From assembly GCA_018606725.1 (NCBI GenBank), contig JAGYID010000023.1, positions 1 through 35,809 of the forward strand: a stretch of DNA of 35,809 nt. The letters run 5' to 3'. The DNA is from Acidobacteriota bacterium. GTDB taxonomy: Bacteria; Acidobacteriota; Polarisedimenticolia; Gp22-AA2. The notes beneath the pieces were generated by a model, which was not told the origin of the DNA, did not search any database, and saw only the letters and a list, made by a program, of their open reading frames with translations. This document shows positions 9,701-31,426 of this stretch, one piece after another. The position numbers and the translations under genes are program-made. Within the stretch, counting starts at the first letter, position 1. Every line of letters begins with the position of its first letter.

Positions 9701-9979
9701 GGTCACGAAGGCGGAGCCGAAATCCGACAGGCCGCGGATCGCCCGGACCCGCGGCACGCCGAGCAGGCCGGTGACCACCGGGTAGGTGACCTGGTCCTCG
9801 AGGATGTCGGGGGAGCGCTCCCAGTGGACCGCGACGAGGACCTGTGTATCGGAGAGATCCGGCAGGGCATCGAGCCGGCTGGCCCGCAGGCAGTGCCAGG
9901 CGACGACCGCCAGCGCCGCCACCGTCGCCAGGACGATCACGCGGTGCCGCGCCGAGGCGGCGATGATCCGGCCGATCAA
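6719..9979 (-). CDS. cusA: CusA/CzcA-type heavy-metal RND efflux pump, probably Cu(I)/Ag(I)
   Basis: A 1086-residue inner-membrane proton antiporter of the HME-RND family, the pump of a tripartite CBA system. Twelve transmembrane segments in two halves with large periplasmic loops are evident. By my alignment from memory to E. coli CusA, the three substrate methionines are kept: Met586 (ILYMP), Met636 (SMFETT) and Met708 (DMLSTG). So is the proton relay: Asp403 (LVDGAIVEMENAYNRL), Glu972 (LDAETAVF) and Lys1015 (RVRPKLMT). This favours Cu(I)/Ag(I) over Zn/Co/Cd. The start is TTG and overlaps the adaptor's TGA as TTGA, implying translational coupling; the family's N-terminal pattern (IGRIIAASARHRVIVL) supports it. 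About 20 extra residues lie between Met636 and Met708. No outer-membrane CusC-like gene is in view. Confidence 0.93.
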   Translation of the reverse strand: MIGRIIAASARHRVIVLATVAALAVVAWHCLRASRLDALPDLSDTQVLVAVHWERSPDILEDQVTYPVVTGLLGVPRVRAIRGLSDFGSAFVTVIFEDRTDLDWARARVVERLSEIRPRLPAGATVGLGPDATGVGWVFQYALVDRAGRRAPDELRAFQDWTLRYALQSVPGVAEVATVGGFVRQIEVTIDPARLRARGLSRADLAAALARTSGETGAGIIESGGAESMVRGRGSARSVEDFERAVVGMAGSTPVLVRDVARVGVGQELRRGVADLDGEGEVVGGIVIMRHGENALEVIRRVKERLRELRPSLPEGVDLVTTYDRSALVEEALRGLRRELLIQMAIVSLVILAFLWHLPSAIVPILTLPAAVLLSFIPLFLLGVTINIMSLAGIAISIGVLVDGAIVEMENAYNRLSLWQAGGRQGDYGAVRLQAMQEVGPAVFYSLLIIAVAFLPIFALEGQEGRLFRPLAASKTLAMLLAAGLAITLDPALRMLFARMEPFAFRPRWLAGLCTRALVGTYRAEDANPINRAAVRLYLPACRLALRRPWAVIGGAIALVAISLPVYGRLGSEFMPELEEGTILYMPVTVPGVSVPQARQILAAQDRALRAFPEVERVFGKAGRADTVTDPAPVSMFETTVMLRPPAAWRRRPRWYSAWAPAWLQGTLRRVWPDRITVRQLIDEMDRAVRLPGVANAWTMPIRGRTDMLSTGMRTPIGIKILGTDLQEIDRVGERLEAVVRTVPGARSAFAERNAGGSYLDVVPRRDVLARYGVTVGDLQDVLAAAVGGEPVTTVVEGRVRTRVVLRDPRNDQEGLARLPVATPAGPQVPLGRLADIRVVRGPAMVRDENGFLAGYVYVDVAGRDLGSFVAEAREAVRRQVKLPTGTLLAWSGQFESMQRVRARLTLIVPLTLALIFLLLMLSTRSAFKSALVMLAVPFSIIGVLWLFYLLGYHVSVAAWVGAIALLGLDAETAVFMLLFLDLSYARVRAAGGPASLAALDEAIVHGAVRRVRPKLMTVAATLAGLLPIMLSHSAGADVTRRIAAPMLGGIVTSFLLELLVYPPVYKLWKLRTDLRHLRGSAPRPA

Positions 9980-11241
9980 GGCCGGCGGCCCCCGCCGTCC
10001 TCCGCGGTCTCCAGCCCCTGGAGCCTCGCCTCGGCATCGAGCAGGAAAGTGCCCTGCACCGCGACGCGCTCGCCGGCGGCGAGGCCGCCGAGGACCAGGA
10101 CCCGGTCGCCGGCGCGCATCCCGACCCGCACCCGGCGGACCTCGAACCGATCGTCGCCGGCCTCGACGAAGGCGACGCGGCGCTGCCCCGACTCGAGGAC
10201 CGCGGCGGCGGGGACGACGACGCCCTCCCCCGACTGGACCGGGATCTCGACCGCCACCAGCATGCCCGGCTTGAGGGCCAGATCGCGGTTGGCGCAGAGC
10301 AGGCGGACCTTGGTTGTGCGGCTCGCCTGGTCGAGGAACGGATTCACCTGCGCGATGCGCGCCGCCAGCACCACCGGCGGGTCGAGCGGCGGAATCACCG
10401 ACGCCTCGCGCCCCGCCCCGACGCCGGGCGTGTCGCTCTCGAACAACTCCGCCTCGACCCAGACCTCCCGCAGGTCGGTGATGGTCATCAGGTCCATCCC
10501 CGCCTCGACCTGCTGCCCTTCGAAGATCGGGCCGAGCTGCACGAAGCCGGCGGCGGGCGCCACGATCGGCACGACCGCGCTGGCCGTCCCCCGCCCCGCG
10601 AGCGCGTCGATGAAGGCGTCGCCGAAGCCGTAGCGCTCGATCCGGCGCCGCGCCTGCTCCTCGGACCGCTTCTCCGCCTCGGCGACCGCGGCCGGGCGCT
10701 GCAGCGCCTCACGCGTGCGCAGGTAGCGCAGGTACTCCTCCTGGGCCGGGACGAAGTCGGGGGCGTACAGGGTGAGCAGCGTCTGGCCCCGCTCCACCCG
10801 GCCGCCGGTGGCGCGCACCTCGAGCTTCTGGATGAAGCCGCCGAGGCGCAGCGTCACGTGCTGCACGCGTCCGGGGTCGGCGACCACCGTCCCCGGAACG
10901 CGCACGGTGCGGGTGACATGGCCGAGCGCGGCCGGCTCGGTCCGGATGCCGGCCATCCGTCGCGCTTTCGCCGAGACCTCGATCACCCGTTCGCCGCCGG
11001 TGGCCGGCTGAACGGCGTCGGCGTCTGCACCGGCGGCCGGCGGGCCGGCCTCATCCGCGACCAGCCGCATGCCGCAGACGGCGCAGTCCCCGGGGCGGTC
11101 GGAGACCATCGCGGGGTGCATCGGGCAGTGGTAGCGCGCGGCGGCGGGCGGGCCTCCGCCGATCCTCAGGAGGAGGGCCGCGGCCGCCAGGAGCAAGGCG
11201 CCGATCAACAGCGTGCGGCGCGTGGGAAGACGCAGGCGCAT
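9976..11241 (-). CDS. cusB: CusB-type periplasmic adaptor with N-terminal heavy-metal-binding domain
   Basis: A 421-residue membrane-fusion protein linking the RND pump to an outer-membrane channel. It has an N-terminal membrane anchor (residues ~10-27), then a short Cys/His/Met heavy-metal-binding domain (YHCPMHP with Cys39; CAVCGM with Cys53 and Cys56), then barrel-sandwich, helical hairpin (Glu/Arg-rich, ~165-205) and beta-barrel domains typical of CusB. The metal-binding domain may hand copper to the pump. It is translationally coupled to the pump gene (4-nt overlap). The gene starts 167 bp after the flavin oxidoreductase gene, with a strong inverted repeat in the gap, so it probably belongs to a separate transcript. 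Confidence 0.92.
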   Translation of the reverse strand: MRLRLPTRRTLLIGALLLAAAALLLRIGGGPPAAARYHCPMHPAMVSDRPGDCAVCGMRLVADEAGPPAAGADADAVQPATGGERVIEVSAKARRMAGIRTEPAALGHVTRTVRVPGTVVADPGRVQHVTLRLGGFIQKLEVRATGGRVERGQTLLTLYAPDFVPAQEEYLRYLRTREALQRPAAVAEAEKRSEEQARRRIERYGFGDAFIDALAGRGTASAVVPIVAPAAGFVQLGPIFEGQQVEAGMDLMTITDLREVWVEAELFESDTPGVGAGREASVIPPLDPPVVLAARIAQVNPFLDQASRTTKVRLLCANRDLALKPGMLVAVEIPVQSGEGVVVPAAAVLESGQRRVAFVEAGDDRFEVRRVRVGMRAGDRVLVLGGLAAGERVAVQGTFLLDAEARLQGLETAEDGGGRRP

Positions 11242-11408: not shown

Positions 11409-12767
11409 TCAGGCGGCGAGGCCCTTGAGCTTGGCCTCGGCCCGCGCTTCCTTGGTCAGGTCGCGGCTGCCGATGGCGACGCCCGCCTTCTCGAGGAATT
11501 CGTTGGGCGGCGTCCCGCCGGCGAAGATCCACACGTAGTCGTTCGGGATCTCCTGCACCTTGCCGGCGGCCTCGAGCAGGACCGACTTCGCGCGGATCTC
11601 GACCGGGTTCGAGCTGAAGACGACGCGGATGGTCCCCTTGCGCATGCATTCCTGGATGCGCTTCTCGTTGCGATCCTTGAGGCGGGAGAACGCGTCGCGG
11701 CGATACGACAGCGTGACCTTGTTGCCCTTCTGGATGGCCAGCCCCATGGCCGCCTCGACGGCGCTGTCCCCGCCGCCGACCACGAGAATCTGGGAGCCGG
11801 TGTAGGCGTCGGCTTCGATCAGGCTGTACATGACCTTCGAGAGCTGTTCCCCCTTGACCCCCAGCTTGCGCGGCGTGCCGCGCCGCCCCAGGGCCAGGAT
11901 GACGGCGCGGGCGCGGTACCGCCCCTTGGCCGTGGTGACCGTGAACAACCCGTCCTCGCCGCGGACGACGCCATCGACCTTCTCGCTGGTGCGGATTTTC
12001 AGGTCGGCGCGCTGCGAGATCTTGTTCCAGACAGCCAGCAGCTCCTCCTTGGAGATCTCCAGCTTGCGGAACTTGCCATAAAGCGGGATCTCCACCGGGC
12101 TGGTCATCACCAGCTTCTGGCGCGGGAACTTGGCGACCGTGCCGCCGAACTCGTCCTGCTCGAGAGTCACGTAGCTGACCTTGTTCTCGATGGCGCGCAG
12201 GGAGGCGGCGATGCCGCCCGGGCCGGCGCCGACGATGCAGACGTCGACGGCGCCCGGCGCCGGCGGCCGCGACAGGGGACGCGACAGGCGGCGGGTGATG
12301 GTGTCGATGACGTCGCGCCCCTGGTTGACGGCGTTCTTGATCAGCGCCAGCCCGCCGAGCTCGCCGATGATGAACAGGTTCGGGACGTTGGTCTCGAGCT
12401 CGGGTGTCAGGCGCGGCAGGTCGCTGGTGATGCTCGGGTCGGCCATGACGATCTCGATCGCCCCCACCGGGCAGGCCTCGGCGCACAGGCCGTGGCCGAT
12501 GCACTTGTGGCCGTTGACGATCGCCGCCTTGCCGGCGATCACCGCCAGGACATCGCCCTCGGGGCAGACCTCGGCGCACGAGCCGCAGCCGATGCACTTC
12601 GACACGTCGATGTGCGGATGCTGGGCGCGCGGCCCTTCGGAGCTCAGCTTGCCGCGCTTCGCCGCCTCCAGGGCACGGGCCTCCTTCTCCCGCATCTTCC
12701 TGATGTACGGGATCATGCAGGCCAGCAGGACGACGGCGAAGACGACGTAGGTGAGAATGTTCTCCAT
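11409..12767 (-). CDS. Membrane-anchored 4Fe-4S and FAD/NAD(P)-binding oxidoreductase
   Basis: A 452-residue fusion. Residues 1-20 form a single membrane anchor. Residues 52-107 are a 2x[4Fe-4S] ferredoxin domain: the first site is complete (Cys58, Cys61, Cys64, Cys68), while the second reads C-I-G-H-G-L-C with His92 in place of the second Cys (Cys89, Cys95, Cys99 kept). Residues ~125-155 (LFIIGELGG...NQGRD) resemble the C-terminal FAD-contact segment of thioredoxin-reductase-like proteins, here placed before the main fold. GAGPGG at 180-185 is the FAD motif and GGGDSA at 331-336 the NAD(P)H motif. No redox-active CxxC of thioredoxin reductase is seen. It lies 96 bp behind the outer-membrane barrel gene. 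It may pass electrons from NAD(P)H or a ferredoxin into the cytochrome chain. Confidence 0.85.
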   Translation of the reverse strand: MENILTYVVFAVVLLACMIPYIRKMREKEARALEAAKRGKLSSEGPRAQHPHIDVSKCIGCGSCAEVCPEGDVLAVIAGKAAIVNGHKCIGHGLCAEACPVGAIEIVMADPSITSDLPRLTPELETNVPNLFIIGELGGLALIKNAVNQGRDVIDTITRRLSRPLSRPPAPGAVDVCIVGAGPGGIAASLRAIENKVSYVTLEQDEFGGTVAKFPRQKLVMTSPVEIPLYGKFRKLEISKEELLAVWNKISQRADLKIRTSEKVDGVVRGEDGLFTVTTAKGRYRARAVILALGRRGTPRKLGVKGEQLSKVMYSLIEADAYTGSQILVVGGGDSAVEAAMGLAIQKGNKVTLSYRRDAFSRLKDRNEKRIQECMRKGTIRVVFSSNPVEIRAKSVLLEAAGKVQEIPNDYVWIFAGGTPPNEFLEKAGVAIGSRDLTKEARAEAKLKGLAA

Positions 12768-12840: not shown

Positions 12841-12867
12841 CGGCCGAATGCGCGGACCGGCTCCTAG
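12841..12867 (-). repeat. 27-nt repeat copy 1 (at the stop codon of the barrel gene)
   Basis: This copy matches 17556-17582 at 25 of 27 positions. Both copies start with the last base of the last sense codon plus the TAG stop and run into the downstream spacer. Read on the minus strand, CGG-T-CCG pairs with CGG-CCG, leaving a bulged T and a short loop. Confidence 0.75.
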
Positions 12868-14591
12868 AACCGGTACGTCACCCCGGCGTAGCCCTGGTCG
12901 TTGTCCTGGAACGTGCCGGTGTACCGCTCCACCGACAGGATCATGTACCAGGAGCGCCCGAGCAGCAGGTCGACATCGAGCCCGTACCAGTCGTCGGTCC
13001 GGTCGAGGGTCGGGTCGTCGAGACTGGTCTCCTCCACCCGCCCGGCCGCCAGTTCCAGGTGGGCACGGCGTCCCAGATCGGTGCCGCCTGCCAGCGCGTA
13101 CATCCAGCCGTCGCTGCGGTCGTTGGTGTAGCGCGTGCCGCGGAGCGAGAACGACATGTTGGCGCGGCTGAGCCCGTCCCAGCCGAAGTTGCCGGAGTAG
13201 CCGTCGGCCCGTCCCGACGGGCCGCCGGTGACGACGCGGCCGTCGGCGCCGATCACGAAGTGCCGGCCGAACCGCAGCGTGCCGCCGGCCCAGCCGCCCT
13301 GGCGGTGACTGTCGTCGAACGCCGTGGCCGGCGTGACGCGATCCTGCCACAGCCGGATGCTGCGCCGGTTGTCGTAGCCGGCGTGCAGGGTGAAGCGCTG
13401 GCCGAGCCGGTAGTGCAGGACGGCGAACGTGCTGGTCGGGGCGACGGTGCTCTCGCCCGCCTCGCTGACTTTCCAGGACCGGTTGTAATCGACCTCCTGG
13501 GTGAGAAAGCCGCTCAGGCGCGGGCCGCGGTAGCGGGTCTGCAGATAGAACCACTCGCGGTTCACGTCCCCCTCGGCGTACGAGTCGATCAGCCCCATGG
13601 TCACCGCCCATTGCCGGGCGTCCATCGGCAGGCTGTGGACCGTGTAGTAGCCGCCGTACTCCTTGACGGTGCCGTCGACGCCGAAGTCGGCCGCATCCGG
13701 CTGCGTGCCGGCGAAGAATCCGCCGCCCCAGCGATCGCCGTCCAGATCGTAGACGACGCCGTCGAAGATGCTGACCGCTTCGAGGTTGGGCGCGAACTGC
13801 CGCCCGACGGTGAGCCTCTGGCGGGTATTCGGCAGGTGCCACGTGGCGGCGAGCCGGTAGACCTGGTTGAGGTGCTCGTCCTCCGAGCCCGCCCAGTCGC
13901 GGTAGGTCTGTCGCGCCCGGACGTCGACGTTGACGTCGAAATCGCTACCCCCCACGCCGGAGCCGTCGAGCCTCAGATCGAGCGCCGGCTGCGAGAAGCC
14001 GTTGTCCCCGCCGCTGTTGTCGCGGACCACCTGGTAGCGGACCCCGACCCGGCCGTGCAATCCGCCCCAGCCGCCCCGGCTGCGCGCCGCGGTCGCGGAC
14101 GACGCGGTCGCGCCCGCGCCGGCGGCGGCGCCGGCCGCCCCGCCGGTCGCACGGCCACCGGACGCGGCGCGCGGGACGTAGCGGACGAGATCGCCGACGA
14201 CGGGCGGGGCCGCGGCGTTGACGATGGCGCACGAGGCGCGGTGCTCGGACAGGAAGGAGACCCTGAGCGTCGCGATCGTGCGGCCGTCGCGGATGACCTC
14301 GACGACGTCCCCCTCGTGCAGGCCGTCCAGCCGTCCGGCGTCGAAGTAAAGCGACGCGGCGGTGATGTAGGTGACCCGGGCCGTGGCCGTCCCAGGCTTC
14401 GGGGCGGCGGGGCTTGCCGGGGTCGGGCTGGCCGCCGGCGGAGGCGTGGTGGTCGGGGGCGCGGCGGCCGGCGGTTGGCCGGGCGGCGGCGCGCCCTGCT
14501 GCTGGGCGACGAGGGGCGTCGCGGCGATGCACCCGAGGAGGACGATGGCCGCCGGCGACGGGACGAGGCGCGAACCCCGGCGCGCCGTCAT
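12864..14591 (-). CDS. Outer-membrane beta-barrel protein with N-terminal SH3-like domain, candidate cytochrome porin
   Basis: A 575-residue protein with a Sec signal peptide (MTARRG start, cut near PLVAQ, residue ~30). A Pro/Ala-rich linker follows (~32-70), then a small beta-rich domain (~72-145: LHEGDVVEVIRDGRTIATLRV...VGDLVRYVP) resembling SH3-like folds. From ~175 to the end, alternating amphipathic strands with many Tyr, Trp and Arg close with YRF; a terminal Phe is the outer-membrane assembly signal. The ATG at 14591 overlaps the TGA of the decahaem gene (ATGA), so the two are coupled. Being encoded with multihaem cytochromes, it is a plausible analogue of MtrB/PioB-type porins, although no sequence match to those families is claimed. 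Confidence 0.8.
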   Translation of the reverse strand: MTARRGSRLVPSPAAIVLLGCIAATPLVAQQQGAPPPGQPPAAAPPTTTPPPAASPTPASPAAPKPGTATARVTYITAASLYFDAGRLDGLHEGDVVEVIRDGRTIATLRVSFLSEHRASCAIVNAAAPPVVGDLVRYVPRAASGGRATGGAAGAAAGAGATASSATAARSRGGWGGLHGRVGVRYQVVRDNSGGDNGFSQPALDLRLDGSGVGGSDFDVNVDVRARQTYRDWAGSEDEHLNQVYRLAATWHLPNTRQRLTVGRQFAPNLEAVSIFDGVVYDLDGDRWGGGFFAGTQPDAADFGVDGTVKEYGGYYTVHSLPMDARQWAVTMGLIDSYAEGDVNREWFYLQTRYRGPRLSGFLTQEVDYNRSWKVSEAGESTVAPTSTFAVLHYRLGQRFTLHAGYDNRRSIRLWQDRVTPATAFDDSHRQGGWAGGTLRFGRHFVIGADGRVVTGGPSGRADGYSGNFGWDGLSRANMSFSLRGTRYTNDRSDGWMYALAGGTDLGRRAHLELAAGRVEETSLDDPTLDRTDDWYGLDVDLLLGRSWYMILSVERYTGTFQDNDQGYAGVTYRF

Positions 14592-15466
14592 GGCTTCTTC
14601 CCGTCCGGGTGACAGCTGTAGCAGGCGTCGCTGGTGTAGGTGTATCCGGCCACTCCGGAATGCTGGTTGGCCGTCTTGGTCGCGTCGTTGTGCGCGTGAC
14701 ACAGGATGCACGAGAAGGTCGTGTAGACGCCGGTCTGGTAATGGCAGTCGCTGCACGACGACCACTTGCCGCGGTGCGTCCCGGAATAGATCGGGAAGAA
14801 CAGCGGGTCATGGGCCGGGTAGCGCGCCGGCATCCAGGACATCTGGAAGTGGCACTGGGTGCAGTCCTGGGGGAACATGCCGGCCTGGTGATCCGGATTG
14901 GTGGTCGCGAGATAGTCGTTCAGGTGACAGTCGACGCAGTCGGTCCGCGTGTTGACATAGCGCAGGTGCCCCTGCGCCTGCAGCGGGTGGCAGCTGTCGC
15001 AGTCGGCGGCGAAGTGGGCGCCCACCAGCGGGAAACGGGTCAGGTTGTGCGCCCGTCTCATCCGCATCGGATCGATGAAGCTGCGGGCCGTGTGGCAGCG
15101 GGCGCAGTCGGAGCCGAGCTCGCCGTCGTGCACGTCCATGTGGCAGGCGACGCAGTCGACCTTGGCGTTGTCCTCGGCGAACTTGAGCGACTGATGGCAG
15201 GCGCTGCAGGACGCCGTCTTGTGCGCCCCTTCCAGCCGGAAGAATTTCGCGTGGTCGAACTTCGGGCTGACCTGCGCCGGTCGCCATCCCGTGGCGCCGT
15301 GACAGAGGCTGCACTCCTCGACGTACTTGCCGTGCGGATAAGGCGGCTCGGCGCTCGCGGCGGCGGCGCGCGCCGGCGGGGCGAAGACGCCCGCCGCGAT
15401 GATGACCGCCGCCAGCGCCAGCGCGGCCTGCACCGGTCTCGCGGGACGGACGATGGACCGGTTCAT
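14588..15466 (-). CDS. Ten-haem periplasmic cytochrome c
   Basis: A 292-residue protein with a Sec signal peptide (ALALAAVIIAAGVF, cut near PARA-AAA) and ten CXXCH motifs: CSLCH, CSACH, CVACH, CARCH, CDSCH, CVDCH, CTQCH, CSDCH, CILCH and CYSCH. Spacing is irregular, with extra His residues between sites (FDHAKFF, DVHDGE, RAHNLTRF) that can serve as distal ligands, as in c7/c3-like families. The ATG at 15466 overlaps the stop of the 23-haem gene and its own stop overlaps the start of the barrel gene, both as ATGA. A longer open frame upstream lacks haem motifs and is not coding. Its size and haem number match the periplasmic partner that enters a porin in known conduits such as MtrA. Confidence 0.92.
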   Translation of the reverse strand: MNRSIVRPARPVQAALALAAVIIAAGVFAPPARAAAASAEPPYPHGKYVEECSLCHGATGWRPAQVSPKFDHAKFFRLEGAHKTASCSACHQSLKFAEDNAKVDCVACHMDVHDGELGSDCARCHTARSFIDPMRMRRAHNLTRFPLVGAHFAADCDSCHPLQAQGHLRYVNTRTDCVDCHLNDYLATTNPDHQAGMFPQDCTQCHFQMSWMPARYPAHDPLFFPIYSGTHRGKWSSCSDCHYQTGVYTTFSCILCHAHNDATKTANQHSGVAGYTYTSDACYSCHPDGKKP

Positions 15467-17535
15467 GCGCGCCCCGCCTTCGCCCCCGGGATCCGCTCCC
15501 CGTGGCAGCTCTTGCAGTCCTTCGGGATGGGGCGGTAGATGACCAGCGCGCGGCCCGCGGCGTCTTTCTTCGTCGGGTGGCAACCGCTGCAGGCCACCTT
15601 CGCGTGCATCCCCTCCAGCGGGTACGCCGCATCGCGGTTGTGATCGAAGCGGATGGCCGGGCGGAACGTCAGGGCGCTGTGGCAGGCGCTGCAGGCGCCC
15701 TTGTCGCGGCGGGTCGCGAACTGCGTGCCGTGAGGATTCTGGTGACAGGCCTCGCATCGCTGGTCCTTGATCGACAACGGCATGGCGGCGGCCTGGCCGC
15801 GGACCAGCAGCAGGCTGGAGGCGGCGCGCGGCGTCTTCAGATCCTTGTGGCAGGTGTCGCACGGCGCCGCGCCATGCGCCCCCTCCAGCGGATAGCCGCA
15901 CGTCGCGTGGGCGGCCACGTCGATGGTCGACGGCCGGAAGCGGTCGGCATTGTGGCAGGCGACGCAGCCGGCCGGCCGGGGTCGCGCTCCCTTCGCCGCG
16001 AACCGTCCCTCGTGCGGATCGAAATGACAGGTCTCGCAGGCGATCTCCCTCAAGACGATCGCGACGCCGGCCTTGCCGAGGATGTCGTTGCCCGGCAGCG
16101 GCGGCAGGCCGGCGCGGTTCGGGCCGTGGCAGGCGGCGCAGGGGATCGTCCGATGGCGTCCCAGGAGCGGCAGACGCAGCTTGGCATGCTGGGTCACCGT
16201 GTAGGTGCTCGGCTTCCAGGCGTCGACGCGATGGCAGCCCTCGCAGGCGCCCCGATCCGGGCGCCGCGCCAGCTGGCCGCCGTGGTCGTCCCGATGGCAG
16301 TCGAGACACCGGGCATGCGTCATCCTGATCAGCACGCCGGCGGTGCCGAGCCGTCCCGGCGGCGCGCCAGCGGGCTCCTTGCGATGACAGGCGTCGCAGC
16401 GGGTCGTGCGGTGCGCCCCATCCAGCGGGTAGGCCGCGGCCTTGTGCAGCTCGACCGTGTAGGTCGAGGGCTTCCAGCCCTGCACGTCGTGGCAGGCGGC
16501 ACAGTCGACGATTTTTCCCAGGAGCGTCGCCGTCCCGGCGTGCGCGTCGGCGTGGCAGGCGGTGCAGGTCTGGAAGGCCGGCTTCTTCCCCCACGCCTTG
16601 ACCGGGTCGTGACATTGCCCGCACTGCAGCGGCACGTGCTTGCCGCGCAGCGGATAGCGGGTCAGGTCGTGGTTGAACGATCCCTGCGGGACGCGCTTCC
16701 AGTCATCGGTCACGTGACAGCGCGCGCAGGTCGGCCCGAAACGGTTGGCGTGCGGGTCGGCGTGACAGGCGGTGCATTCCTTGTGCGGCAGCGGCTTGTA
16801 CAGCGGCACCCGGTTCCCCTGCTTGTCGACCTGGAGCTTCAGCGTCGGCGCCAGGTGGCACTTGTCGCACGTCACCTTCCCGTGCCGGCCGGTGAGGGGG
16901 TAGTCGGTCCTGGCGTGATCGAAGGTGGTCGCCGGCTTCCAGACCGACACGCCGTGGCATTTGCCGCAGTCCTTGCCGAGTGCGCCGCGATGCACGTCCT
17001 GCCGCGCGTGGCAGGGGACGCAGCCGCGGTCGAGACCGATCCAGGTGTCCGTGTGATCCTTCCCGGGCGCGAGCCCGATGACCGCCGGGTCCAGGAATGC
17101 CGGCTTGTGGCAGTCGCGGCACTTGGCCTGCGCGTGCTTCCCTTCCAGCGGCCACTTGGTGCGCTTGTGATCGAAGCGCTCGGGGCTGCCTTCCTCCCAG
17201 TTGATCATCTCGAAGTCGAGGCCGGCGTGATCGGGGTGGCACTTGGCGCACTCCGCCTTCGGAACATTGCCGTGCAGACCGACGCCGCGCTCGACGATCG
17301 AGGCGATCTCCTTGTGGCAGGCGAGGCAGCGATCCGGCAGCGAGCCGCCGCCTTGGCCGCGCTGGCCGTGGCAGTTGAAGCACTTGAGATTGCTGTCGAG
17401 CTGCTGGTGCGGCCGCGCCAGAGGTCCCGGCGACACCTGGGCGCGGGCGGCGGTCGCGTGGCTCATGAGGATCGCCCCGAGGAGGACCGGCAGGAGGCCG
17501 AACGCCCGTCGTCCTGTTGCGCCGGCCTCACGCAC
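15463..17535 (-). CDS. 23-haem secreted cytochrome c
   Basis: A 690-residue protein with 23 CXXCH sites, from CFNCH to CKSCH. The signal peptide (FGLLPVLLGAILM, cut after ATAARA) directs it through Sec. A repeating unit of 50-70 residues recurs along the chain: F-x-H-x-x-T-x-YPL-x-G-x-H, then C-x-x-CH, then CHADxH-x-G, then a C-x-x-CH followed by W-KP. This suggests growth by tandem duplication. The start is GTG at 17535, chosen because GGAGGGA lies 5 nt upstream; an upstream ATG at 17622 would overlap the previous gene. It follows the cytochrome-b-like gene by 43 nt and overlaps the decahaem gene. It may sit in the periplasm or on the cell surface as a long electron wire. Confidence 0.93.
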   Translation of the reverse strand: MREAGATGRRAFGLLPVLLGAILMSHATAARAQVSPGPLARPHQQLDSNLKCFNCHGQRGQGGGSLPDRCLACHKEIASIVERGVGLHGNVPKAECAKCHPDHAGLDFEMINWEEGSPERFDHKRTKWPLEGKHAQAKCRDCHKPAFLDPAVIGLAPGKDHTDTWIGLDRGCVPCHARQDVHRGALGKDCGKCHGVSVWKPATTFDHARTDYPLTGRHGKVTCDKCHLAPTLKLQVDKQGNRVPLYKPLPHKECTACHADPHANRFGPTCARCHVTDDWKRVPQGSFNHDLTRYPLRGKHVPLQCGQCHDPVKAWGKKPAFQTCTACHADAHAGTATLLGKIVDCAACHDVQGWKPSTYTVELHKAAAYPLDGAHRTTRCDACHRKEPAGAPPGRLGTAGVLIRMTHARCLDCHRDDHGGQLARRPDRGACEGCHRVDAWKPSTYTVTQHAKLRLPLLGRHRTIPCAACHGPNRAGLPPLPGNDILGKAGVAIVLREIACETCHFDPHEGRFAAKGARPRPAGCVACHNADRFRPSTIDVAAHATCGYPLEGAHGAAPCDTCHKDLKTPRAASSLLLVRGQAAAMPLSIKDQRCEACHQNPHGTQFATRRDKGACSACHSALTFRPAIRFDHNRDAAYPLEGMHAKVACSGCHPTKKDAAGRALVIYRPIPKDCKSCHGERIPGAKAGRA

Positions 17536-17555: not shown

Positions 17556-17582
17556 CGGCCGAATACTCGGACCGGCTCCTAG
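17556..17582 (-). repeat. 27-nt repeat copy 2 (at the stop codon of the cytochrome-b-like gene)
   Basis: This copy is nearly identical to 12841-12867 (two differences). On the minus strand CCGG-T-CCGA pairs with TCGG-CCGG around GTAT, giving an 8-bp stem with one bulged T just after the stop codon and before the ribosome site of the 23-haem gene. Confidence 0.75.
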
Positions 17583-18562
17583 TGGAGCCAGGTGACCCCG
17601 AGGGCCACCGCCGTGACGACATGCACCGCCACGGCGATGAGGGCCGTCACCGCCACCGGCCGGTGGGCGACGTGCCAGTAACGGAACACGCGCTGCGTGG
17701 CGTCGAGCATCCGGACCTGCTGGCTGAGCGCCATCTGCCGGCGCGCCAGCCGCAGCACCAGGGAGATCACCTGGCGATCGACCGGCCGCCCGCCGCGCAT
17801 CGCGCCCCGCAGGCCGCGGCGCAGCTTCCGGGCGGCGCGGAAACGGTCGAAGTCGTCGCGCATCATCCGCCACATCGTCCGCATCGGCCCCAGGCCGGTG
17901 TAGGGGCTGGTGTCGACCGCCAGCAGGCGGTCGACGACCTCCGGGGCGACCCCCGTCGAGTCGGCGATGTAGCGCTGCAGAGCGGTGCGCTCGCCGTTGA
18001 CCTCCTCGAGACCCAGCTCCAGACCGCTGCGGCTGCGCGGGATGCGGGCGTAGAGGTACTTCCCGACGATGCCGCTCAGGCAGACGATGAGCATCGAGCC
18101 GTAGCCGAGGCCGATGACGCCGGTGAAGTGCCAGGCGGCGTGGATGGCGGCGAGGAACGGGATGCAGATCCCGGCGACGATGTGCACGTCGAGCCAGCGA
18201 CCGAGCGAGCCGGTGAAGGCGAGCCAGCGGATTTTCTTGCGCAGCGGGTAGAGCCAGAGAAACAGGAACAGAGCCATCGACAGGAAGCCGGCGGTCTGGC
18301 CGACGTAGCCGGTCGGCTTGAGCCACGGATGGAACGGGCTGCGGACGCGGGCCGCCGACGGCAGCGTGTAATACGGCAGGCCCATGGCATTGACCGCCCC
18401 GAGGATGACGAGGAGCGCCAGGGTGATCCGGCGGCCGGTGCGGGGCGCGCTGTTCTCGGCCGGCGCCATCGTCGGTCTAGCGCCGGGACGATGCGGCGAT
18501 TTCGCAGTCACCGCGCCGCCGGACGCCGACGGAAAATTCATCCTGTTCGCTGGTGCGCCCAT
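17579..18562 (-). CDS. Cytochrome-b-like dihaem membrane protein
   Basis: About 327 residues, with roughly five membrane helices and a ~125-residue polar loop before the last helix. Two helices carry histidine pairs 14 residues apart: His127/His141 (in DVHIVAG...AAIHAAWH) and His300/His314 (in VAHRPVAVTALIAVAVH). This is the spacing of the bis-His ligands of two stacked b haems in cytochrome b and related quinone-linked proteins. I do not recognise a named family. It is first in the operon with the 23- and 10-haem cytochromes, so quinol:cytochrome c exchange is a reasonable guess. The start is uncertain: 18562 has AGGAGG 12 nt upstream, while 18469 would give a tighter 296-residue protein without a clear ribosome site. 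Confidence 0.8.
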   Translation of the reverse strand: MGAPANRMNFPSASGGAVTAKSPHRPGARPTMAPAENSAPRTGRRITLALLVILGAVNAMGLPYYTLPSAARVRSPFHPWLKPTGYVGQTAGFLSMALFLFLWLYPLRKKIRWLAFTGSLGRWLDVHIVAGICIPFLAAIHAAWHFTGVIGLGYGSMLIVCLSGIVGKYLYARIPRSRSGLELGLEEVNGERTALQRYIADSTGVAPEVVDRLLAVDTSPYTGLGPMRTMWRMMRDDFDRFRAARKLRRGLRGAMRGGRPVDRQVISLVLRLARRQMALSQQVRMLDATQRVFRYWHVAHRPVAVTALIAVAVHVVTAVALGVTWLH

Positions 18563-18773: not shown

Positions 18774-19277
18774 TCAGGCGCCCGGTTTCTTCTCCGGAGC
18801 GCCGGACGCGACCACGAGGCCGCCCACGCTGCGGTCGCCGACGACCAGGGTCACCTGGTCGCCCGGCTGGACGACGCCGGGGTTGTGGAACAGCAGGGTG
18901 TAGATGTGCCCGGCCACCGGCTGCATCGTCCTCTGCCGCAGCGCCCCGGCGTTGGAGTCCGGGACCGCGAGCAGCTGCGCCGTCCTGTCGACCAGGAGAT
19001 GAACCGGATCCCTCGAGGCGCGCCCGAGAAGGGGCAGCGACTTGTCGGGGTCGATGACCCGGACGCGCAAATCCAGCATCAGGCCGCCCGCGGTCGTCCG
19101 CAGCGCGACGATCTGCACGCCGAGATCCTCCTGCTTGATGTGCCGGCGCGACCCGCCCTGTCCCATGCCCGGAACGTGCCCGGACGGGGCCGTCGCGTCC
19201 GCCGCGGCTGCGGCGCCGCCGGCGCAGGCGAACACCGCCAGAAGCGCCGGCAGGACCCTCGACAGCCGCGAGGTCAC
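18774..19277 (-). CDS. Small secreted protein of unknown function, last gene of the copper-oxidase operon
   Basis: A 167-residue protein with a Sec signal peptide (VLPALLAVFACAGGAAAAA). The mature part is one compact beta-rich domain with LGVQIVALRTTAGGLMLDLRVRVIDPDKS and YTLLFHNPGVVQPGDQVTLVVGD. It does not match a family I can name. It has no Cys in the mature part and one HNPG motif that could be a loop near a ligand. The GTG start overlaps the TGA of the preceding oxidase-like gene (GTGA), so translation is coupled. It is probably a partner or chaperone of the oxidase-like proteins, which is inference from position only. Confidence 0.75.
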   Translation of the reverse strand: MTSRLSRVLPALLAVFACAGGAAAAADATAPSGHVPGMGQGGSRRHIKQEDLGVQIVALRTTAGGLMLDLRVRVIDPDKSLPLLGRASRDPVHLLVDRTAQLLAVPDSNAGALRQRTMQPVAGHIYTLLFHNPGVVQPGDQVTLVVGDRSVGGLVVASGAPEKKPGA

Positions 19278-20833
19278 GGACCGACCGTGCCGCAGAAATT
19301 CACCGCCGCGACCCTGAAGTAGGCGGTGCCGGACGGCACCGCCACCACCGTCGGAATCGCGGTGACCCCCAAAGCGTACGGGGTCCACGGCCCGGATGGC
19401 GTGGCGCTGATATAGACGATGTAGGACACGGCGCCGGCGGCCGGGCTCCAGCCGATCACCAGCCCGTCCCGGGTGGCGGAGAGGATCCCGAATTCCTTGC
19501 GGGCCACCGTGAGCCCCGTGACCTCGGCGGGAGCGACATCGGCGACCACCTCGAGGACGGCGGGCGGCGCCAGCGTGTCGGTGACCGCCGGCCCGCCGGG
19601 GCAGGTCACGTCCACGGTGTAGGAGTAGGCCCCCGCCGGCTGCGCGACGTCGTAGTTGACGCCGGTGGCCGCCGCGATCGGCGCCCCCCCCAGCCTCCAC
19701 TGGTAGGTCGGGGTCGAGGTGCAGCCCAGGACCGTGGAGCGCGATGCGTCGAGGCGCCGCACGTTTCCCGCACAGTATCGCGCCGGTCCGTCGGCCTGGA
19801 CATGCGCCTTCACGACCGTGCCGCTGGCGGGCGACACCTCGATGAACGCCAGGATGCCGCCCGGGAAGGCGCCGGCGTTGGTGACGTTCAGGCGCCGATC
19901 GTAGAAGGCATAGAGGCCGGCGGTCGCCGGCCGGATCAGGATGTCGAGGGTCTGGCCCGCCTCCAGCGACTCCGAGACGCGACCGGTGCGGGGGTGCCCG
20001 AGCAGATTGCCGTCCTGGGCAATCACGTCCATCCGCGTCCCCTGCAGCTCCATGCTGTGGGTCTGCAGTCCGGCGTTGATCAGGCGGATGAGCGTTGTCT
20101 CGCCGGCGCGTCCGCCGGCGAACGGCGCGTACGGGTCGGTGTACGGCCGGTCGTTGACCAGGAAGTACTTCGGATGGTAGTCGATGGTGCTGGTCACTTC
20201 GCCCGGCAGGGCGGTCTCGGGTGTCTTCTCGGGAGCGTACTTGCCCTGCGCCACGGTGTCGTGGAAGACGGGGTCGATCTCGCTCACGAGCATGACGACC
20301 TCATGGTCGTAAGCGCTCGCCGGCGCATCATAGGCCCGGCCGGCGGTTGCCGGCCGTACCACGATCGCTCCGAACAGGCCCATCTGCACCTCGAGCGAGG
20401 GGTCGGTGCCGCTTTCGTACAGGAACGTGCCGGGACGCACGCCCGTGAAGGTGTACGTGGCCGGCCCGCCGGCCGGCGCCGCCTCGTGGGTGAAGGAGAC
20501 GACCCGGGTGGGAGTGCCGGAGTCGAACACCGGCGAGAGGGTCGCCGGAAGGCCGGCCACAACCAGGGACACCGGCTTCGCAAGATTGTTGGTCAGGTTG
20601 ATCACCAGCGTCGTGTCGCCCGCCGGCACCTCGAGCGTCGGTCCGGGGATCGTCACCGGTCCGCTCCCCAGCGCGAATCCCCACACGGGGATGACGCGGC
20701 CGTCCGGCATCGTCACGCTCCCGTAGTCGGCGCGGAGGTTGTAGGTCACCGCCCGCGACAGCCCATGGAACGACAGAGTCAGGACTGCCGCGACTGTCAG
20801 AACCCGAAGTCGTCTTCCGTGACAGAGTCTCAT
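19274..20833 (-). CDS. Multicopper-oxidase-like protein C with degenerate copper sites and an FN3-like tail
   Basis: A 519-residue exported protein. Residues ~25-320 are two cupredoxin domains laid out as in a two-domain multicopper oxidase. The copper ligands are nearly all missing: the place of HWHG reads NNLAKPVSLVVAG, the place of HCH reads FLYESGTDP, and domain 2 keeps a single His in QTHSMELQG. A PKD-like stretch (~345-410) and an FN3-like domain (~430-519, ending FRVAAVNFCGTVGP) follow. It is unlikely to be an oxidase on its own and may be a structural subunit or binding protein. GAGGGGA lies about 8 nt before the ATG. It starts 22 nt after gene B and is coupled to the small secreted gene downstream. 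Confidence 0.85.
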   Translation of the reverse strand: MRLCHGRRLRVLTVAAVLTLSFHGLSRAVTYNLRADYGSVTMPDGRVIPVWGFALGSGPVTIPGPTLEVPAGDTTLVINLTNNLAKPVSLVVAGLPATLSPVFDSGTPTRVVSFTHEAAPAGGPATYTFTGVRPGTFLYESGTDPSLEVQMGLFGAIVVRPATAGRAYDAPASAYDHEVVMLVSEIDPVFHDTVAQGKYAPEKTPETALPGEVTSTIDYHPKYFLVNDRPYTDPYAPFAGGRAGETTLIRLINAGLQTHSMELQGTRMDVIAQDGNLLGHPRTGRVSESLEAGQTLDILIRPATAGLYAFYDRRLNVTNAGAFPGGILAFIEVSPASGTVVKAHVQADGPARYCAGNVRRLDASRSTVLGCTSTPTYQWRLGGAPIAAATGVNYDVAQPAGAYSYTVDVTCPGGPAVTDTLAPPAVLEVVADVAPAEVTGLTVARKEFGILSATRDGLVIGWSPAAGAVSYIVYISATPSGPWTPYALGVTAIPTVVAVPSGTAYFRVAAVNFCGTVGP

Positions 20834-20855
20834 CGCGCTGTCCCCTCGATCGTTT

Positions 20856-22127
20856 TCAAGGTATGGGCACCCAGGGCGCTTCGATCGCCAGCATGGTCAT
20901 CATCCCGCCCGGGAAGTCGTTCAGGTTGGTCATCTCGTTCTCCCGGTGCGAGTGCCACATGTAGAAGAAGGCGCCGGTCTGGTTCAGGCCGGGATGGTCC
21001 GGCGGCAGCGGCCCGGTCTGCCCGAGGAGCGGGCTGCCGCTGTAGAGATCGCCGTACTGCAACGAGGTCAGGTAAGGAGTCTGGGTCGGGATCGCCTTGC
21101 CGTGGTCGGGCGCGTACTCGCCCACCTGCATCGGGTCGCCGGGCGCGTGTCCGTAGACGTCCCAACCGAGGTTGTCGGCGCTCCAGGTGAACAGGCCGTC
21201 CCAGGTCTGCCCGGAGCCGGCCGGCACCGTGAAGTGGAACTCGGCGAGATCGGCTCCCGCCGCGCCGCCGGTCGACAGCAGCCGCCCGTCCCGGCCGACC
21301 GCCAGCACGTGGTTGCCGTGCGTGTGGAACGGGTGAGGGTCCCGTCCCATGTTCAGGACGCGCAGCAGGATCGTCTCCCCCGGATGCATGCTGACCATGG
21401 CGCCGTACGGCTGGTTCGGGAGCCACGGAACGTTGTCCTCCGACATCGTGTCGGTGGCGCTCCGGCCGTTGATGAACCAGTAACCGGCAATCCAATCAGT
21501 GCTGTCGAACGACAGGCCGCTCTCCGCCGCCGTGCTCAGCCGGTGGTCCAGGTCGGCCAGGAGCAGGAGGTACTCGCGGTCGTAGGCGGTTGCCGCGTCG
21601 GCATAGGCCTGGCCGGCGATGGGCGGGCGCACGATGATGGCGCCGTACAAACCGAGCGGGATCTGCTTATCCAGGTGCGTGCCACTCTGGTAGTAATAGG
21701 TGCCCGGCGCGCCGGCCGTGAAGGTGTAGGTCCTGGTGCCGCCCGACGGCGCCGCTTCCTGCGCAAGGGAGCGCAGCCGGCCGTTCGCGTCGTAAACCGG
21801 CTGCGTCGGCCCCTCCTGCCCCGGGAACACCAGCGACACCGGCTCGGGGAGCATGTTGGTCAGGTTGATCGTCACCATCGTCCCCTGGCTGAGGATGAGG
21901 GTCGGGCCGGGCAGCTGCACCTCGCCCGTCCCGCCGTCGTCGGCGAGACCCCAGAAGTAGATGTAGCTGCCGTCGGGGTTGGCGAGGAAACCGTCCCTGG
22001 CCGTGAAGTTGAACGTCGTGCCGGTGATGCCGGAGATGGCCGCGCTCGCCGGTGCGGCGCCCCCGGCCGCGGCAAGCACCGCGACGATCAGGGCGGCCCG
22101 GGCGAATCGGAACGCTTGTCGGTCCAT
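20856..22127 (-). CDS. Multicopper-oxidase-like protein B carrying only the domain-2 ligands
   Basis: A 423-residue exported two-domain cupredoxin protein with a Sec signal peptide (ALIVAVLAAAGGAAPASA). Domain 2 carries HPFHTHGNH (His265, His268, His270, His273) and WHSH (His392, His394), the places where multicopper oxidases bind the type 2/3 copper cluster. The type 1 Cys is Ser393, so no blue copper is expected here. Domain 1 lacks the HWHG and HxH ligands (MLPEPVSLVFPG; YYYQSGTHLDK). Alone it holds only half of a trinuclear site. TAGGAGG 7 nt before the ATG fixes the start, and the stop codon of gene A lies within that ribosome site. It is very likely in one operon with A, C and the giant gene. 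Confidence 0.88.
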   Translation of the reverse strand: MDRQAFRFARAALIVAVLAAAGGAAPASAAISGITGTTFNFTARDGFLANPDGSYIYFWGLADDGGTGEVQLPGPTLILSQGTMVTINLTNMLPEPVSLVFPGQEGPTQPVYDANGRLRSLAQEAAPSGGTRTYTFTAGAPGTYYYQSGTHLDKQIPLGLYGAIIVRPPIAGQAYADAATAYDREYLLLLADLDHRLSTAAESGLSFDSTDWIAGYWFINGRSATDTMSEDNVPWLPNQPYGAMVSMHPGETILLRVLNMGRDPHPFHTHGNHVLAVGRDGRLLSTGGAAGADLAEFHFTVPAGSGQTWDGLFTWSADNLGWDVYGHAPGDPMQVGEYAPDHGKAIPTQTPYLTSLQYGDLYSGSPLLGQTGPLPPDHPGLNQTGAFFYMWHSHRENEMTNLNDFPGGMMTMLAIEAPWVPIP

Positions 22128-22137
22128 GTCTGGCCTC

Positions 22138-23385
22138 CTACGGCGCCGAGACGCGGATCTCGGTCATCAGACCGCCGCGCGCCTGCCGGTAGTTGTTCAG
22201 GTCATTCAGGTTCCGGGAGTAGACGAAATACGTCCCGGGCGCCACATCCTTGGTGTCCAGGATGACGTCGTACGCCTCACCGCCCCCGAACGTGATCGAG
22301 TTGGCCATGTACGACATGTCGGCGCCGGTCGGGCCGCGCAGCAGCTTCGCGTCCTTGGCCACCACGCGCATCGGGATGCCGAGCACCTGCACCGTGTGAT
22401 GGGCGTTGGTCGAGACGTTGGACAGGCGCAGCAGGATCCGGTCGCCCTTGACGGCCTCCACGAGGGAGTGGATCGGCTGCCGGAAGCCGCTCACCTCGTT
22501 TTCGATGCCGGCCGGGCTGGTGTCGATGGTGTCGGGATACCCGCGGCCGTTGAACAGCGGATAGCTCGAACGGCTGTTGTAGAACGGATCGGGCTGCACG
22601 TTCATGAACACGTCGTGGAAGTAGCGATCGAAGTCGATCACTTGAAGGGCCGCCTCGACGTTGTACCCGGTCCGGCCGTCGCCGTCGTTGTAAGCGAATT
22701 TGTTGTAATGCCGGCCGCTGCCGGTGGGGTACTCCTTGTCGGTGCCGTTCTGCGCCGGGCGGACGTACAGGTTGCCGATCATTCCGAGCTGGATGTGCTC
22801 CGGCGCCTCGAAATGGCAGTGGTAGAAGTAGGTCCCCGGCCGCACCGCCTGGTACCAGTAGGTGAAGATCGTCCCGATCCTCGGCGCCGGCGACACTTCC
22901 GGCACACCGTCGTGAATCGCCGACTGCTCGGGGAAGCCGTGCCAGTGCACGGTGTGGGCGTCGTCCACGTCGAGCCTGACGAGGAAGCCGGTGTTCCCGA
23001 GGTTGAGGTACAGCTCCTGGCCCTCGTCGAGGAAGATGTTCGGCGCCGGCGCGTTGGCCGCGAGCGCACCGTAGCTCTGGGCCTGCTCTTCGGGGAGCGC
23101 CAGCGGCACCGGGCTGAAACCGAACATGTAGATGGTGTAGCCGTCCGCCATCCTCACGAAGCCGTCGCCGCCCTGGATCCACATGCAGACGGCGTTCGGA
23201 TCGACGTCGAGGACGCCGTTGCCGTTGTGGTCGATGTCCCCTGGCCCCGGAAAATCGCCGGCCGGATCCTTGTCGATGTCGTTGGGGCACTGCAGCTGGT
23301 TGACGGCCGCCGCCGCTCCCGGCAGCGCGAGGCACAGGAGGAACAGCCCCAGCCCCAGGCGGGTCATCGCCGTTCTCGTCCTCAT
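22138..23385 (-). CDS. Multicopper-oxidase-like protein A with type 1 copper and the domain-1 cluster ligands
   Basis: A 415-residue exported two-domain cupredoxin protein (signal peptide LGLGLFLLCLALPGAAAA). Domain 1 has HTVHWHG (His144, His147, His149) and YHCHFEAPEHIQLGM (His189, Cys190, His191, His197, Met202): a full blue type 1 site (His144, Cys190, His197, Met202) plus the domain-1 half of a trinuclear cluster. Domain 2 keeps only AHHTVQ (His329, His330), and the expected second HxH is replaced by FVYSRNLN. This resembles the class of two-domain oxidases with type 1 copper in domain 1, but is incomplete. The start at 23385 is preferred because AAGGAGGAG lies at 23395-23403; an ATG at 23427 overlaps the giant gene's TGA and is an alternative. 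Confidence 0.88.
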   Translation of the reverse strand: MRTRTAMTRLGLGLFLLCLALPGAAAAVNQLQCPNDIDKDPAGDFPGPGDIDHNGNGVLDVDPNAVCMWIQGGDGFVRMADGYTIYMFGFSPVPLALPEEQAQSYGALAANAPAPNIFLDEGQELYLNLGNTGFLVRLDVDDAHTVHWHGFPEQSAIHDGVPEVSPAPRIGTIFTYWYQAVRPGTYFYHCHFEAPEHIQLGMIGNLYVRPAQNGTDKEYPTGSGRHYNKFAYNDGDGRTGYNVEAALQVIDFDRYFHDVFMNVQPDPFYNSRSSYPLFNGRGYPDTIDTSPAGIENEVSGFRQPIHSLVEAVKGDRILLRLSNVSTNAHHTVQVLGIPMRVVAKDAKLLRGPTGADMSYMANSITFGGGEAYDVILDTKDVAPGTYFVYSRNLNDLNNYRQARGGLMTEIRVSAP

Positions 23386-23394
23386 CAGCGCTCG

Positions 23395-23403
23395 CTCCTC
23401 CTT
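23395..23403 (-). promoter_or_regulatory. Ribosome binding site deciding the start of oxidase-like protein A
   Basis: AAGGAGGAG on the minus strand lies about 9-11 nt before the ATG at 23385, directly ahead of a normal-length signal peptide. The competing ATGs at 23427 and 23415 have no such site, although 23427 forms an ATGA overlap with the previous stop. Confidence 0.5.
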
Positions 23404-23423
23404 CCGTGCGGTCATGGGCGCGC

Positions 23424-31259
<7,836 letters not shown>

Positions 31260-31264
31260 GTCTG

Positions 31265-31272
31265 CCTCCTCC
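31265..31272 (-). promoter_or_regulatory. Ribosome binding site deciding the giant gene start
   Basis: GGAGGAGG lies 5 nt before the ATG at 31259, immediately ahead of a typical signal peptide. In-frame sequence extends upstream to 31370 but lacks such a site and would bury the signal peptide. Confidence 0.7.
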
Positions 31273-31426
31273 AACAGCGCCAGACGACGCGCGGCCTGCC
31301 GGCAGCCGTCCGACACCCCACCGGTCCGCGGGTATCCTGCGCAGGGCGTCGTCGCGCTTTGCGGCGCCACGCCGGGCTTTCGAACCTTCCCTGTTCGGCG
31401 ATGTAAAGATAAGGGGCGGGCGATCC

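Follow-up and report, generated by a model that had tools for sequence, protein, structure and literature searches.

A 23-haem cytochrome as the probable periplasmic wire of a PCC3-type porin-cytochrome conduit in an Acidobacteriota bacterium

The closest described counterparts of the system considered here are the PCC3 porin-cytochrome conduits, which He et al. (2017; PMC5566968) define by an inner-membrane protein (IMP) of about 300 residues with an SGXXG motif, two WX3HX13H motifs and five transmembrane helices. In the parts of the literature drawn on here, PCC3 is reported from Alpha-, Beta- and Gammaproteobacteria and found in iron oxidisers, its authors model an inward flow of electrons to quinone, and its periplasmic cytochrome has a median of 21 haems (PMC5566968); a survey of the Gallionellaceae gives 21, 24 and 27 haems, which differ by three, for the periplasmic protein, and the sections cited also list 10-18 and 26-35 haems without stating a three-step rule (PMC10734462). 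The published plan further includes an extracellular second cytochrome whose haem number varies and an outer-membrane beta-barrel, in most cases with many strands. Another relative is GSU1996 (PDB 3ov0, 3oue), in the cited account a chain of four trihaem domains with 12 haems, one of them per domain being His-Met ligated, and described as a capacitor (PMC10138318). Here we describe a 35,809-nucleotide stretch of DNA from an Acidobacteriota bacterium (GenBank assembly GCA_018606725.1, contig JAGYID010000023.1; the window, analysed as a whole), in which a gene at 15463..17535 on the minus strand encodes a cytochrome with 23 haem-binding motifs. Overall, we consider it probable, at about three chances in four, that this protein serves as the periplasmic wire in a conduit of the PCC3 type, a label that we apply from the published motifs and gene plan, setting the locus beside PCC3 by description and not by sequence kinship to proteobacterial PCC3. 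The evidence consists of a five-gene neighbourhood, seven c7-like units in the cytochrome, one extra His for each haem, the motifs of the IMP, the co-occurrence of the genes and the recurrence of the module in distant genomes. The original prediction dealt with the cytochrome and missed the five-gene trans-envelope module of which it is one part.

The gene is a single open reading frame (ORF) with a GTG start and GGAGGG 5' of the GTG. Its product is a secreted protein of 690 residues (the signal peptide was recognised by eye) with 47 Cys, 50 His and 23 CXXCH motifs, about one haem for every 30 residues; in 2000 shuffles of the protein CXXCH appeared 0.22 times on average and at most three times, which bears out the prediction of one 23-haem cytochrome at this place. 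The protein matches Pfam Cytochrome_C7 (PF14522) with E=5.2e-34 and 116.3 bits against a curated cut-off of 24.8, as do all 17 of its aligned relatives at E<=0.001. Two haems lie at the N-terminus, followed by seven blocks of three, and because the blocks start 94, 80, 75, 86, 93 and 91 residues apart, the repeat unit is a cytochrome c7-like three-haem module of 75-94 residues in seven copies, and not the unit of 50-70 residues first proposed. On the minus strand, the signal peptide, a conserved QVSPGPL...H segment delimited by the alignment of relatives and the first two haems (CXXCH at residues 52 and 70) occupy 17251..17535; unit 1 then lies at 16969..17250 (residues 96-189), unit 2 at 16729..16968 (190-269), unit 3 at 16504..16728 (270-344), unit 4 at 16246..16503 (345-430), unit 5 at 15967..16245 (431-523), unit 6 at 15694..15966 (524-614) and unit 7 at 15466..15693 (615-690).

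The units were compared in pairs after cutting the protein at every third haem, with 200 shuffles per pair in which CXXCH was kept in place, and the internal repeat proved significant: across the 21 pairs z ranges from 2.7 to 14.6, and all but three (1-5, 1-6 and 5-7) exceed every shuffle. Every unit has a His at the F-x-H place and a PLxGxH ahead of its second CXXCH; a further His follows closely on the third in units 1-6. The recurring phrase reported earlier is thus real, PLxGxH occurring seven times, one in each unit, and H-x(4-6)-[YWL]PLxGxH likewise seven times; the full form F.H..T.YPL.G.H is exact in two places only. CHADxH and W-KP, which several units had been said to carry, are exact twice (CHADxH) and three times (W[KR]P), and reach five occurrences each in the relaxed forms CHx[DN]xH and [WF][KR]P.

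When 17 relatives are aligned, each of the 23 haem motifs is conserved wherever a row reaches it, and 23 of the 27 non-motif His of the window protein are conserved in every aligned row with that position. Every haem therefore has a conserved His as a candidate distal ligand, one apiece, which points to His-His ligation, throughout the protein on the simplest reading. A profile of the 17-row family, run against PDB sequences, finds the GSU1996 dodecahaem wire (3ov0) first, with E=1.3e-8; a direct phmmer search of PDB with the 23-haem protein found nothing. The idea of a linear haem wire grown by duplication is therefore supported in part, by the duplication of the haem unit and by this profile match, and fails in the size of the unit.

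The same match bears on whether such a protein need bridge anything at all. Its nearest solved relative being a protein described as a capacitor, the 23-haem cytochrome might serve mainly as a periplasmic electron store that does not by itself connect the membranes; we regard this as unlikely, as its strict association with an inner-membrane b-type protein, the adjoining barrel and second cytochrome, a fusion of the two cytochromes in one relative (L037) and a nearly fixed haem number would all fit a bridge better. High-molecular-weight cytochrome c chains are also among the PDB profile matches and, together with a weak match to the NCBIfam HmcA model (NF045713), would suit an HmcA-like respiratory subunit that serves periplasmic partners without an outer-membrane conduit. 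This we think very improbable: the score of 31.7 bits is far under the equivalog cut-off of 400, a beta-barrel-like gene follows instead, and no Hmc-type membrane subunits were seen beside the 23-haem gene. The labels HmcA, ExtN/ExtO and CctA were all dropped for the protein, each scoring far under its cut-off.

The 23-haem gene is the second of five adjacent minus-strand genes, in the order IMP, 23-haem cytochrome, 10-haem cytochrome, beta-barrel-like protein and flavin adenine dinucleotide (FAD)/iron-sulphur oxidoreductase. The first (17579..18469) encodes 296 residues that, from motifs and hydropathy, are predicted to form a ferric-reductase-like membrane protein with two b haems, the PCC3 IMP. 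It has WX3HX13H twice (WLDVHIVAGICIPFLAAIH and WHVAHRPVAVTALIAVAVH), an SGIVG and five Kyte-Doolittle peaks above 1.5 (the weakest 1.53), a count from hydropathy only that agrees with the five helices of the PCC3 definition; its match to Pfam Ferric_reduct is weak and under the cut-off. Both WX3HX13H motifs are present in 15 of 16 IMPs, the exception being that of L037, for which the frame read stops early; all 16 have SGXXG. The third gene (14588..15466), which begins within a four-base overlap (ATGA) with the end of the 23-haem gene, encodes a 292-residue cytochrome with a signal peptide, 10 CXXCH and a Pfam Cytochrome_C7 match, the shortest form of what appears to be a variable partner wire; against the Mtrc-MtrF domain it scores a weak 27.6 bits (cut-off 30). 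The fourth (12864..14591), its start overlapping the stop of the 10-haem gene by four bases, encodes about 575 residues ending in VTYRF, and 16 of 16 relatives end in YRF, WRF, FRF, CRF or YRW. We infer an outer-membrane beta-barrel from these C-terminal residues, a hydrophobicity-alternation test and the place in the operon.

The fifth gene (11409..12767) encodes a 452-residue protein with matches to Pyr_redox_3 (E=4.9e-43) and Fer4 families, a putative FAD/NAD(P) oxidoreductase that is anchored in the membrane and has two cluster sites of ferredoxin type. It is closest to YpdA-type reductases (166.8 bits, under the cut-off of 339.9), and its FAD and NAD(P) glycine motifs are kept in all 12 aligned copies, one of which is cut by a contig end. 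The window protein has a hydrophobic N-terminal anchor; some of the 12 copies start otherwise, without an anchor in the aligned stretch. Two peculiarities of the cluster sites may be recorded: the second reads CxGHGxC...C, its second Cys being replaced, by His in most of the 12 copies, and the first is one Cys short in L002, L004 and L072.

The module was followed through 20 related loci by tblastn with 12 window proteins, some of the loci reaching contig ends. Beside the 23-haem cytochrome we found a second multihaem ORF at 16 loci, the IMP at 14, the FAD/iron-sulphur gene at 12 (two partial) and the barrel at 10; by eye, there is a further ORF ending in FTVGWRFR in L001 and one ending in SSYRIR in L037. 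Among 41 genomes of the window's class, the 23-haem protein and the IMP occur in the same 12 and neither in the other 29 (Fisher 1.3e-10, uncorrected for phylogeny), and the barrel occurs in 11 of those 12 and in G028. Carriers of module parts are genomes of the same class, an Acidobacteriia metagenome-assembled genome (MAG), Bacteroidetes MAGs and plasmid pEMTOL02 of Emticicia oligotrophica DSM 17448, which has genes for ccsA, IMP, FAD/iron-sulphur protein, 23-haem and 40-haem cytochromes and barrel in a row (L072). On that plasmid ccsA, for cytochrome c biogenesis, precedes the module (L072, 6649-9735), as if the module travels with an assembly factor. In L037 a single ORF with 51 haems bears two hallmarks, that of the N-terminus of the 23-haem protein and that of the C-terminus of the second cytochrome, a fusion suggesting that the two proteins may touch.

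Elsewhere in the window's genome (L058, G000:C95, 8363-10806) lies a second 10-haem and barrel pair, 70% and 68% identical to the first; within the fetched stretch no 23-haem gene adjoins it. Other multihaem ORFs, with 4 to 18 CXXCH, occur in contigs C28, C68 and C70 of G000 (L064-L066) and have no long tblastn matches to the module.

At the same time, a number of observations weigh against reading the protein as part of a PCC3-type conduit. The FAD/iron-sulphur gene was not found in the fetched stretch at 8 of the 20 loci, nor the IMP at 6, some of these loci lying at contig ends; the former gene is, moreover, unmentioned in the cited part of the PCC3 description (PMC5566968). Among eight genomes of the window's family only the window's own has the 23-haem protein, so the module is patchy. 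The alternation test on the barrel-like protein, crude in itself, gives z=5.9 in a 17-row alignment with 21 strand-like peaks; no Pfam family matches the protein above cut-off, its profile finds proteins other than porins in PDB (best E=0.26), and PCC3 porins are, in the cited passage, often larger, with up to 42 strands (PMC5566968). AlphaFold gave no usable model of the full 690 residues with five sequences (pLDDT, its confidence score, 35.5), and a model of one trihaem unit from 22 rows (pLDDT 65.4) had no Foldseek match in PDB at E<=0.001.

The haem numbers of the two cytochromes add a further dimension. Among 12 relatives with 23 haems, 744 of 924 comparisons give a unit its positional counterpart as best partner in another species, mean identity to the window units being 44-51% at the same position and 37-40% at other positions of the same protein, and no DNA tandem repeat was found within the window's 23-haem gene. 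Because same-position partners prevail and the gene lacks such a repeat, the duplications that built the protein are judged to be older than these species. Counting the window, this inner wire has 23 haems in 13 of 19 relatives and 20 in the other six, that is, 2+3n, a count that leaves out L003 and L004 (near repeats of L002), the divergent L034 (21 haems), the fused L037, L005 and fragments. For the second cytochrome the haem numbers are 10, 10, 13, 16, 16, 19, 19, 22, 22, 25, 25, 28, 40, 40 and 58, so that 15 of 15 with both conserved ends fit 10+3n; the values of 25 for L002 and 58 for L001 include one CX3CH and one CX4CH (24 and 57 without them). This count omits the rows cut by contig ends (L003, L004, L031, L039, L062 and L063), as well as L032, L061, the fused L037, and L005, L033, L034 and L060, where no such ORF was seen. 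The ORFs of L032 and L061, at 18 haems each, are off the series, and neither has the C-terminal end in frame; in L061 (3395-5440) the second cytochrome shifts reading frame before its conserved C-terminal end, perhaps through an assembly error in the repeat. Nor is the three-haem step universal, since in genome G034 (L031/L063) the haems of the second cytochrome repeatedly step by 25 residues; both loci lie at contig ends, possibly as two halves of a single gene.

The module added to the second cytochrome measures 73 residues or 219 base pairs and is seen as DNA tandem arrays (210 base pairs in L036), and in L027, L028, L036 and L037 units are up to 95-99% identical in protein; this 73-residue module thus appears to be still duplicating in DNA. 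The coefficient of variation of haem number is 0.06 for the inner wire and 0.52 for the second cytochrome, contrasts that are descriptions and not tests because the samples are related. New in detail are the three-haem steps themselves and an inner wire nearly fixed at 20 or 23 haems beside a partner wire of 10 to about 58.

Regardless of such detail, a general pathway can be proposed. We read the module as a putative PCC3-type trans-envelope conduit with an extra entry enzyme of NAD(P)H type. Electrons would cross the inner membrane by way of the two predicted b haems of the IMP and enter the 23-haem protein. This would bridge the periplasm, and the 10-haem protein, at or in the outer-membrane barrel, would take the electrons on to the surface of the cell. 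The anchored FAD/iron-sulphur enzyme might couple the chain to NAD(P)H, like the dehydrogenase half of an NADPH oxidase; the YpdA-type match, the conservation of the FAD and NAD(P) motifs throughout the 12 copies and the N-terminal anchor in the window suggest that NAD(P)H, and not quinone alone, is so coupled. Outward flow is our first choice, and the reverse could hold. For example, an extracellular donor (Fe(II), Mn(II) or a cathode) might feed the 10-haem protein, the 23-haem wire and then the IMP, with the FAD/iron-sulphur enzyme making NAD(P)H or accepting electrons, a direction that we find possible and somewhat doubtful. It has in its favour the iron oxidisers for which PCC3 is modelled inward and three consecutive multicopper-oxidase-like genes directly upstream (19274-23688, minus strand; Cu-oxidase family matches far under the copper-resistance cut-offs); against it, PCC3 function is stated in the cited passage to be unverified (PMC12442390), and the multicopper-oxidase-like genes, which tblastn matched at none of the 20 related loci, stand outside the conserved module. 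These genes were rejected as members, as was that for a 2648-residue surface-type protein (23424-31370, minus strand) with MopE copper-binding, thrombospondin type 3, SdrD_B and beta-helix matches, likewise in 0 of 20 loci; the HlyD, RND and histidine-kinase genes too gave 0 of 20. A metal efflux pair lies downstream (6719-11241, minus strand), a CusB/HlyD-type adaptor with a heavy-metal-binding domain and an AcrB-family pump.

Returning to outward flow through a PCC3-type conduit, we tentatively put forward, at less than even odds, a cable in the manner of an NADPH oxidase and in series: the NAD(P)H-dependent FAD/iron-sulphur enzyme would reduce the two b haems and these a periplasm-spanning wire, fixed by periplasm width at six or seven trihaem modules, which would hand electrons to an outer wire that lengthens by 73-residue modules (10+3n) through continuing in-frame duplication. 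If so, this would be a quantised, length-tuned conduit able to move between phyla as one cassette. Much of the PCC3 plan is now seen in the window's lineage, an Acidobacteriia MAG, Bacteroidetes MAGs and the plasmid of a Bacteroidota strain. That strain, Emticicia oligotrophica DSM 17448, could serve as an organism for tests, and a nearly fixed inner wire set against an outer wire in three-haem steps makes it possible to ask directly whether the length of the cytochrome is determined by how wide the periplasm is. The open-licence literature yielded nothing joining PCC3 cytochromes with Acidobacteri or Bacteroidetes, on an Emticicia multiheme cytochrome, or on a Bacteroidota multiheme porin-cytochrome with NADPH; subscription papers, preprints and supplements lay outside this scope, so this is weak evidence of absence from print.

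Set beside the described systems, the module has in common with the PCC3 of the cited accounts a multihaem cytochrome of about 21-27 haems, a variable second multihaem cytochrome, what is here a putative beta-barrel, the SGXXG and paired WX3HX13H motifs of the IMP, and repetitive sequences with few residues per haem. It differs in the FAD/iron-sulphur NAD(P) oxidoreductase gene of its neighbourhood, in an inner wire of 20 or 23 haems (2+3n) against 21, 24 and 27 (PMC10734462), in a putative barrel of about 575 residues and in named hosts outside the Proteobacteria. With GSU1996, its best PDB profile match, the 23-haem protein shares a linear chain of trihaem c7-type domains, but its domains number seven and its haems 23, each haem with a further conserved His, and it does not appear to share the His-Met pattern of the cited account. 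In its working, the module would resemble MtrCAB and MtoAB, with a barrel and multihaem cytochromes across the outer membrane; its IMP and cytochrome architecture are different, and Pfam and NCBIfam scans found no such family above cut-off. Like the NADPH oxidases and ferric reductases, the gene group brings together an FAD/NAD(P) enzyme and a ferric-reductase-like membrane protein that has two HX13H sites predicted to bind b haems, but here the dehydrogenase would be a separate, YpdA-like protein with ferredoxin-type sites, and the acceptor a haem wire and not oxygen.

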